NCBI GenBank assembly: GCA_013205085.1
Contig: JABMLH010000001.1
Location: 868,001-932,000 of the forward strand
DNA: 64,000 nucleotides
DNA from: Microbacteriaceae bacterium VKM Ac-2854
GTDB lineage: Bacteria > Actinomycetota > Actinomycetes > Actinomycetales > Microbacteriaceae
Direction: 5' to 3'
Every line of letters begins with the position of its first letter. Within the stretch, counting starts at the first letter, position 1. A program made the translations under genes and the position numbers. Below, one piece after another: positions 168 to 43,730 of this stretch. The notes below the pieces were generated by a model. It ran no database searches, was not told the DNA's origin, and saw only the letters and a program-made list of their open reading frames with translations.

Positions 168-230
168 CCTTCGGTGGTTGAGCTTGCCGAAACCACCCGC
201 TCCCGTACCTGGTTCCGGCAGGCTCAATCA
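168..230. repeat. Family D palindromic element, copy 1 (ureC-ureF gap)
   Basis: An imperfect inverted repeat pairs 179-194 (TGAGCTTGCCGAAACC) with 211-226 (14 of 16 positions). It fills most of the 85-base gap between ureC and ureF. Related copies are at 36372-36425 and 37999-38052. Lying inside an operon, it may act as a processing or stability hairpin; that role is inference. Confidence 0.7.
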
Positions 231-241
231 GCGGTGGCGCA

Positions 242-985
242 ATGAACGCCTCCGTCACCGTCGCCATGCTGCTCGCGGATGCGCGGCTGCCCTCGGGCGG
301 GCACGCGCATTCCGCGGGCATGGAGCCCGCGATCGCGGGCGGTCTGTCCGTCGCCGACGTGCCTGCGTTCCTCCTCGGCCGCGCCCGCACGACCACGCTC
401 GTCGAGGCCGGCACCGCCGTCGTCACCCTGAAAAGGGTTGTCACTTCGTCGGAAACCCACCGACAAAGTGACAACCCTTCTGAGCCGGGCGTTGTCGATT
501 CTTCGACCGGTCACAGAATCGACAACCCGCTGGGGCAGATCGAGCGGGCGTGGGCGGCGCGCACGCCGAGCCCCGCGATGCGGGCGGCGTCGCGGGTGCT
601 GGGGCGCGGGTATCTGCGGCTCGCGGCGCGGATCTGGCCGGAGTCGGCGGCCCTGCAGATCGCGCGGGCCCGCCGCGACCCGCCGCCGCGCGCGGTCGTG
701 CTCGGCCTGATCGCCGCCGCGGCCGGCCTCGCCGCGGAGGACCTCGTGCGCCTGACGATCTACGACGAAGCGCAGAGCGCCGCCGCCGCCCTGCTCAAGC
801 TGGAGCCGCGCGATCCGGCCGACACCATCGCCTGGGTGCTGGCCACCTGCGCCGCCGTCGACCACCTCGTGCCGCTGCTGGCCGAACTGACCACCCCCGA
901 CGCGATCCCCGCGGCGGGAGCCCCCGAAGCCGAGGGCTGGGCCGAGGCCCACGCCCTCCTGAACCAGAGGTTGTTCCGTGCCTGA
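242..985 (+). CDS. ureF: Urease accessory protein UreF with palindrome-encoded insertion
   Basis: UreF (247 aa) works with UreG and UreD to load nickel into apo-urease in the cytoplasm. Family features visible are the start [18 protein letters not shown] and the segment [18 protein letters not shown]. Between them, residues about 64-95 are encoded by two back-to-back palindromes (433-479 and 491-526) with an unusual composition ([14 protein letters not shown] and following). By my recollection of actinobacterial UreF this stretch is about 20-25 residues longer than usual. The frame is kept and the rest of the protein looks intact. The ATG has no strong ribosome binding site, and the 3' end overlaps ureG by 8 bases, so translation is probably coupled. 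Confidence 0.9.
432..527. repeat. Family C palindromic element, copy 1, plus second hairpin, inside ureF
   Basis: First hairpin: 433-452 pairs with 460-479 (19 of 20, core AAGGGTTGTCACTTCGTCGG). Second hairpin: 491-502 (GTTGTCGATTCT) pairs perfectly with 515-526. The first matches the intergenic element at 43680-43730 almost exactly. Both read through in frame in ureF, which makes this a palindrome inserted into a protein-coding gene. Confidence 0.85.
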
Positions 986-1781
986 CAGTATCGAGACCCC
1001 CACCATCCCCGCCCGCTCCCTGCGCCTGGGCGTCGCCGGCCCCGTCGGCACCGGCAAGTCGTCGCTGATCGCGACTGTGTGCCGCGCCCTCGCCGACGAA
1101 CTGCGCCTCGGCGTGATCACCAACGACATCTACACGGATGAGGACGCCCGATTCCTCCGCTCCGCCGGCGTGCTCGAACCGGAGCGCATCCGCGCGGTCG
1201 AGACCGGTGCGTGCCCGCACACCGCCATCCGCGACGACGTGACCGCCAACCTGCTCGCCACGGAAGACCTGGAGCGCGACTTCGACCCGCTGGACGTCGT
1301 CATCATCGAGTCGGGCGGCGACAACCTCACCGCCACGTTCTCGCCGGCCCTCGTCGATGCGCAGATCTTCGTGCTCGACGTCGCCGGCGGCGGCGACGTC
1401 GCGCGCAAGGGCGGCCCCGGCATCGCCCGCGCCGACCTGCTCGTGGTGAACAAGACCGACCTCGCGCCCTACGTCGGCGTCGACGTGCCGCGGATGGTGA
1501 CGGATGCCGAGGCGGCCCGCGACGGCCGCGCCGTGCTCGCGCTCTCGCGCACGGATGCCGACTCGGTCGCGAGCCTGAAGGCCTGGGTGCTGCAGATGCT
1601 CGCCAAGCACCGTTCGGGGGAGCACACGCCGCAGGATCCGGGGCCGATGGCGCCGCACTCGCACCTGGACGAGGGCGGCCAGGCCGTGCTGCACACGCAC
1701 GACGAGGTTGAGCACACGCACGACGAGGCTGGGCACACGCACGACGAGCACAACGGCGTCGCGCACACGCACACGCACTGA
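978..1781 (+). CDS. ureG: Urease accessory GTPase UreG
   Basis: UreG (267 aa) is the SIMIBI-class GTPase that drives nickel delivery to urease. The P-loop GPVGTGKSS is at about residues 21-29, followed by [22 protein letters not shown] and NKTDLAP, all family hallmarks. The C-terminus (about 227-267) is a histidine-rich tail built of HTHDE-type repeats (DNA 1690-1778), probably a nickel store; many UreG proteins carry such a tract at the N-terminus instead. The GTG start at 978 overlaps ureF by 8 bases, and the stop overlaps the ureD ATG by one base. Confidence 0.95.
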
Positions 1782-43679: not shown

Positions 43680-43730
43680 AAAAGGGTTGTCACTTTGTCG
43701 GTGGGTAACCGACAAAGTGACAACCCTTTT
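43680..43730. repeat. Family C palindromic element, copy 2
   Basis: A perfect 23-base stem (43680-43702 with 43708-43730) with a 5-base loop lies between two converging genes. It is the intact intergenic form of the element found inside ureF. Confidence 0.9.

Follow-up and report, generated by a model that had tools for sequence, protein, structure and literature searches.

The urease accessory gene ureF of Microbacteriaceae bacterium VKM Ac-2854 raises the question whether a protein-coding stretch that can fold into two hairpins was built by dispersed palindromic repeats that entered the gene, or whether it reflects a regulatory RNA structure, a displaced terminator or the local growth of a repeat-rich loop. 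Coordinates refer to the window, i.e. the whole stretch of 64,000 nucleotides that was analysed (contig JABMLH010000001.1, positions 868,001 to 932,000), unless a locus or contig is named.

The two hairpins within ureF

The original prediction had placed two hairpins in the codons for UreF residues 64–95 or thereabouts, and both their positions and their frame were confirmed by an inverted-repeat search, the open reading frame and the match of its product to PF01730 (table 1). In the inverted-repeat search, the arms of the first hairpin (H1; 428-452/460-484) are 25 nt long, 88% complementary and separated by a 7 nt spacer, and those of the second (H2; 491-508/509-526) are 18 nt long and 89% complementary. 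As RNA, H1 is predicted to fold with -32.5 kcal/mol (z -7.5; equalled by none of 200 shuffles) and H2 with -24.3 kcal/mol (z -3.5; equalled by one of 200).

Table 1. Features discussed in the text and sites in the nearest relative, VKM Ac-2855 (G010), that correspond to family A sites of VKM Ac-2854.
Feature	Position	Strand	Description
ureF	242..985	+	247 codons, single open frame spanning both hairpins; Pfam UreF PF01730, E 9.5e-14
ureG	978..1781	+	overlaps ureF end; cobW/HypB/UreG domain, E 2e-32
H1, palindrome of dispersed family A	432..480	+	ureF codons 64-80, 17 residues
H2, palindrome resembling family C	491..526	+	ureF codons 84-95, 12 residues
Intergenic family A copy	43680..43730		between two convergent genes; arms of 23 nt, perfectly matched
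Family A copy in kinase-like protein of VKM Ac-2854	L045, 2496-2544		in frame
G010 counterpart of the 43680 site			B copy and several C' copies
G010 counterpart of the ureF site			one C' arm
G010 counterpart of a third site			B copy alone
G010 counterpart of a fourth site			2.4-kb longer stretch with a C' copy at its end
G010 counterparts of the remaining two sites			imperfect palindromes, other sequence (read by eye)

The insert at 432-526 lies in frame in ureF and adds about 33 residues (codons 64-96). Its codon make-up is foreign to the host gene: third-position GC is 0.58, as against 0.95 in the rest of ureF, where no 33-codon stretch falls below 0.88. Over the 209 ureF codons outside the loop, comparison with the nearest relative, Microbacteriaceae bacterium VKM Ac-2855 (G010), gave a dN of 0.026 and a dS of 0.36, so UreF outside the loop is under purifying selection. 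As had been claimed, H1 is nearly identical to an intergenic element, which lies on the other strand of the same window (94% identity across 50 bases). This intergenic copy is 11 nt away from one neighbouring gene end and 10 nt from the other, and is predicted to fold with -42.1 and -39.9 kcal/mol on its two strands. The T run seen 3' of intergenic copies is interrupted in the ureF copy (CCCTTCTGAG).

Palindrome families in the genome of VKM Ac-2854

H1 belongs to a family, termed A here, whose members consist of AAAGGGTTGTCACTTTGTCGG, seven bases and the reverse complement, i.e. a symmetric element of about 48 bp. A search of the genome for its arm, as the original prediction had proposed, turned up many copies besides the one at 43680. 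A 43-base pattern has 47 copies within three mismatches, and none was found in 298 other sampled genomes of the taxonomic family. That sample excluded G010, which was covered by a separate search of VKM Ac-2854 and 14 further genomes of its genus; apart from VKM Ac-2854, family A matches occurred there in G010 only, at two sites that are both diverged and intergenic. With up to three mismatches, the 16-base arm gave 71+71 half-sites in the genome and 2+4 for the reversed control, and a palindrome search of the 450 kb around the window gave 53, as against none in a single equally long sequence from an order-3 Markov model.

A consensus was drawn from a stack of 54 copies, the two of the window among them. 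It ends in AAAGGG and CCCTTT, and is flanked by an A run on one side and a T run on the other, both fading outward. The arms are near-invariant, whereas the seven-base loop takes 46 forms, with mean pairwise differences of 0.073 for arms, 0.62 for loops and 0.69 for the left flank. When loops were turned by their middle base, which was possible for 49 of the 54, their difference fell from 0.62 to 0.48, and the loops thus have a weak common consensus. Their 46 forms notwithstanding, they also fit the symmetric pattern YNRSYNR. Simple recent copying is no explanation for this combination of near-invariant arms and widely differing loops. A search of Rfam returned only matches far under the gathering scores (best E 0.68).

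Family A copies have a preference for certain gene contexts, as judged by a home-made codon-usage gene finder that was trained on VKM Ac-2854 and does not represent curated annotation. Of the 54 copies, 27 are flanked by convergent genes, 24 by genes of the same direction and one by divergent genes, and two are intragenic; a slightly stricter run gave 27, 23, one and two, with one copy at an edge. Convergent gaps are enriched (p 8e-6, against a background of 49 convergent gaps among 241) and divergent gaps avoided (p 1.3e-5), and the median distance to the closest gene end is 6 nt, with 44 of the 50 intergenic copies at 30 nt or less. With such an anatomy, terminator activity of the intergenic copies is plausible. 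In the 24 same-direction copies, however, the upstream A run is kept as well as the downstream T run (80 versus 87 bases, p 0.16), and the runs are thus independent of gene direction; a terminator tuned to gene direction is not supported by these counts.

The second intragenic copy is read in frame in a sugar-kinase-like protein of VKM Ac-2854 (L045), where it reads RRVVTFSGDSGRTDNPFE and where the element uses the same reading frame as in ureF. This protein has an SBD_N domain (4-210) and a partial NBD_C match (318-403), and the copy sits in the linker between SBD_N and the matched part of NBD_C. No homologue was found in the 14 other genomes of the genus; among ten homologues from other genera that display the stretch, the linker is shorter in nine, and that of L143 is long and unrelated.

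The 17-base arm pattern of H2, with up to three mismatches, occurs 11+22 times, as against 0+1 in the control, and the closest full-length copy seen is that at locus L086. In the 450 kb around the window, a search with the whole element returned only H2 itself and one match with seven mismatches, and in the absence of a close full copy there the family assignment of H2 is weaker than that of H1; less certainly, H2 would be a divergent member of family C at best. The original prediction of a palindromic element in ureF stands as regards its palindromic nature and its frame, with the qualification that its two hairpins are assigned to two different families.

These are not the only families. In 850 kb of the two genomes (VKM Ac-2854 C1:600001-1050748 and G010 C20:1-400000), at least eight could be distinguished (A, B, C and F4-F8, all working names), and three of 92 palindromes were scored as lying in predicted genes: that in ureF, another right at a gene's end and a third in a G010 frame with a weak score. 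On C1 near 700899, the predicted 3' end of a gene is overlapped by a palindrome of family B, which may thus supply the last residues and the stop of the encoded protein. The spacer between ureC and ureF (window 170-235) carries inverted repeats of the GGTTGAGC/GAAACCAC type (family F8), and the same spacer of G010 a different palindrome, F6.

The UreF loop in related genomes

A UreF search had matches in 72 of 396 genomes, VKM Ac-2854 included, and gave loci for the best 30 places (VKM Ac-2854 and 29 others). The loop, defined as A59 to A106, was compared among 42 UreF sequences, i.e. that of VKM Ac-2854 and 41 others. This set does not include L010, which holds the G010 ureF already represented by L011, nor L014, nor L024-L028, which are further pieces of the genomes of L019-L023. 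In VKM Ac-2854 the loop is 48 residues long, and the commonest length is 23, found in 15 of the 42, in agreement with the claim, and the alignment proposed to check it, that UreF of relatives is without this segment. The alternative that all relatives carry the same segment in diverged DNA was looked for in the UreF alignment and not found. Overall, loop length varies between 22 and 60 residues, with 40 in G010 and 60 in two sequences, and the loop thus tolerates changes in length. Three long loops (60, 60 and 54 residues) contain no comparable palindrome; the loop also lengthens in other ways, therefore, and length alone proves nothing. The palindrome score of the loop, by contrast, is 17 in VKM Ac-2854, a value equalled only by one other genome (G498) and not exceeding 10 in the other 40 of the 42. 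A search of the PDB with the single UreF sequence matched no UreF structure, and a profile of alignment A3 matched the UreF structures 6jc4, 2wgl, 3cxn and 8hc1; the putative position of the loop in UreF is that given by sequence alignment alone.

G498, which belongs to a different family of the same order, is the clearest independent case of a palindrome in the UreF loop, where it has a perfect 34-base palindrome. Among 21 loci examined, this palindrome occurs in 13 separate copies with at most four mismatches in 32 positions, plus one shifted overlap. Its half-sites (58 and 70, versus 41 and 48 for the reversed control) show only a moderate excess, and it is the paired copies of fixed spacing, rather than half-site counts, that argue for a dispersed repeat. 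According to the gene finder, here applied outside its training genome, three of the 13 copies lie in predicted genes, namely ureF, the gene of phosphoenolpyruvate carboxylase and the tail of that of a PadR-like regulator. In the carboxylase, the palindrome is in frame at residues 423-434, directly ahead of the GYSDS motif, and the alignment with chain 1fiy, the E. coli enzyme, is interrupted, with query residues 417-437 unmatched. G498 also has a second copy of its palindrome shortly upstream of ureF.

The ureF gene of G010 carries yet another sequence. At the same codon column begins GGGTTGCCGTTTCTTTGAC, an exact 19-base arm of an abundant palindrome of this genome: the exact string occurs 18 times in 400 kb of G010, the ureF copy counted, and its reverse not at all, and there is no exact occurrence in 450 kb of VKM Ac-2854. 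The second arm is absent from G010 ureF, and tandem 15-mers (GTCTCGTCGACGGAG-like) follow directly after the first. The two ureF genes may go back to a single ancestral insertion whose sequence was later replaced, or to two arrivals.

Differences in family at a shared site are not confined to ureF. Out of 32 palindromes of VKM Ac-2854 that were compared with G010, 20 have both flanks in order there. Six of these 20 are family A copies, and G010 has no A copy at any of the six; the sequences found there are listed in table 1. Other shared sites carry the same family in both genomes (F4, F5, F7 or B), and a few, as judged by eye, are without a palindrome in G010. Family switches at shared sites indicate that replacement between VKM Ac-2854 and G010 is frequent in this sample; it may reflect conversion, or else the loss of one element followed by the arrival of another.

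Movement, known systems and rival explanations

The original prediction also held that a mobile palindrome had landed in ureF without breaking its frame. The intact frame and the copies elsewhere stand; movement itself we infer from the distribution of family A, which is abundant in VKM Ac-2854 and has two diverged sites in G010. A search of the VKM Ac-2854 genome for RAYT (PF01797) gave no match, the control search being positive in five of 14 known genomes. At 36 boundary settings, flanking direct repeats of at least four bases were not above those of re-paired flanks, the best setting giving 2 versus 0.42 expected (p 0.07). Among the 100 of 142 half-sites listed, no arm pair surrounds a transposase gene save for an IS481-like element inside a palindrome, and a pair of exact arms 1.4 kb apart on C16, the only distant pair noticed, was considered as a parent transposon and rejected as being this element. 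Named from its open reading frame and ends, the IS481-like element (L029 2000-3400, C16) lies inside a family A palindrome whose centre is repeated on both sides.

Likeness to the Rickettsia palindromic elements (RPE), also part of the original prediction, holds in principle and not by sequence. RPE are described, in passages of PMC10969869 and PMC3733652, as dispersed palindromes between and inside genes that are translated in frame in unrelated proteins, just as family A is dispersed and read in frame in ureF and in the kinase-like gene. The same sources give RPE a size of about 150 bp (PMC10969869) and, for those compared in PMC3733652, CGTC ends, whereas family A is shorter and symmetric, has other ends and is intragenic in only two of 54 copies, and is thus set apart by description. 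REPs, in the relevant part of PMC3733652, are found for the most part close to gene ends, where the neighbouring genes converge or run in the same direction, with some inside open reading frames. Family A shares the short palindrome and all of this placement; its consensus, however, has neither a GTAG nor a CGTC tag, and it is therefore not filed among described REPs. The genome also differs in having no RAYT match, and RAYT are expected for GTAG REPs and not for CGTC REPs. Another resemblance is to MITEs, which PMC10969869 describes, in the section concerned, as multi-copy inverted repeats, short and non-coding, that are at times fused in frame to genes; family A is likewise a short, many-copy inverted repeat that is in frame in genes, but has no target duplications and no parent transposon among the half-sites listed. 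Finally, an intergenic family A copy looks like a bidirectional intrinsic terminator, i.e. a stable hairpin just beyond stop codons with an A run before and a T run after it, from which it differs in having arms near-identical throughout the genome and in the ureF copy being without an intact T run. The word Actinobacteria is absent from the text of PMC3733652, and the portions of the literature that were covered contain no such repeats in Microbacteriaceae and no UreF inserts, which is no proof of absence.

In our view it is very probable that members of family A and of a C-like family, both of them dispersed and REP-like, entered a ureF loop of variable length and are read through in a UreF that is in use. 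This reading is supported by the further copies in the genome, the uninterrupted frame, the foreign codons, purifying selection, the shorter loops of most relatives examined and the different repeated palindromes in the loop of two other genomes. Against it speak the single arm in G010 ureF, followed by tandem 15-mers, the missing target duplications and RAYT match, the three long loops without a comparable palindrome, the moderate half-site excess in G498 and the contrast between near-invariant arms and differing loops. Half of the copies between convergent genes and a single one between divergent genes, A and T runs bracketing the stem and very stable folds would suit bidirectional terminators that are alike through selection, in which case the ureF copy would have arisen or been displaced by recombination, without a mobile element. 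We regard this as unlikely, because terminator function needs neither identical arms genome-wide nor absence from 298 other sampled genomes, the A and T runs do not track gene direction, and the placement is just as described for REPs in parts of PMC3733652.

Still less probable, though suggested by the stable fold of H1 with its largely intact arms and by the resemblance of intergenic copies to transcript-end hairpins, is a role at the RNA level, in which the ureF hairpins would determine the UreF:UreG ratio by attenuation within the gene or by slowing ribosomes, and the added residues would be a by-product: the T run is broken in ureF, G010 has a single arm there, and no result obtained here points to regulation. 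That the segment is merely a repeat-rich loop that grew in place, with hairpins arising by chance and without insertion, could appeal to the wide range of loop lengths among the 42 UreF and to the tandem 15-mers of G010. It has to contend, however, with the near-identity of H1 to an intergenic copy, half-sites far over control, a codon make-up that differs from that of the gene and a palindrome score far above that of 40 of the 42 UreF. Local growth is very unlikely for H1, which belongs to a dispersed family, and is less excluded for H2; it is only because the family of H2 is less certain that we leave this explanation a sliver of probability.

If palindromes did enter ureF, their source would be mobile or convertible hairpins that were copied into it, and the UreF loop would receive such elements repeatedly owing to its tolerance of added residues, which would form an exposed flexible loop. 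The intergenic copies may serve as 3'-end hairpins or may sit there harmlessly. Most likely, hairpin repeats spread separately within lineages and survive at sites where their presence costs little, i.e. beyond gene ends and, rarely, in tolerant loops and linkers.

There is a precedent for different repeats at one site, since REPs that differ between two Xanthomonas species occupy roughly one position in recB, as reported in PMC3733652, which makes UreF one more example of something already described, here with new families. In-frame palindromes, as far as the relevant passages of PMC10969869 and PMC3733652 go, come from Rickettsia and from other REP-rich genomes outside Actinobacteria. More tentatively, and with less than even confidence, we propose that in Micrococcales species-specific hairpin families supply protein segments, the UreF loop having been hit by different families in three genomes and the same elements also being read in frame in a PEP carboxylase and a kinase-like protein, and that these families replace each other at shared sites between close species by copying that involves neither RAYT nor target duplication. 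Untagged palindromes in a high-GC actinobacterial genome without RAYT show the same in-frame behaviour as the Rickettsia and REP cases. A single UreF loop, whose repeat differs among the three genomes, could serve as a natural repeated experiment on protein segments added by repeats, and the same sites may also inform us how hairpin families displace one another.
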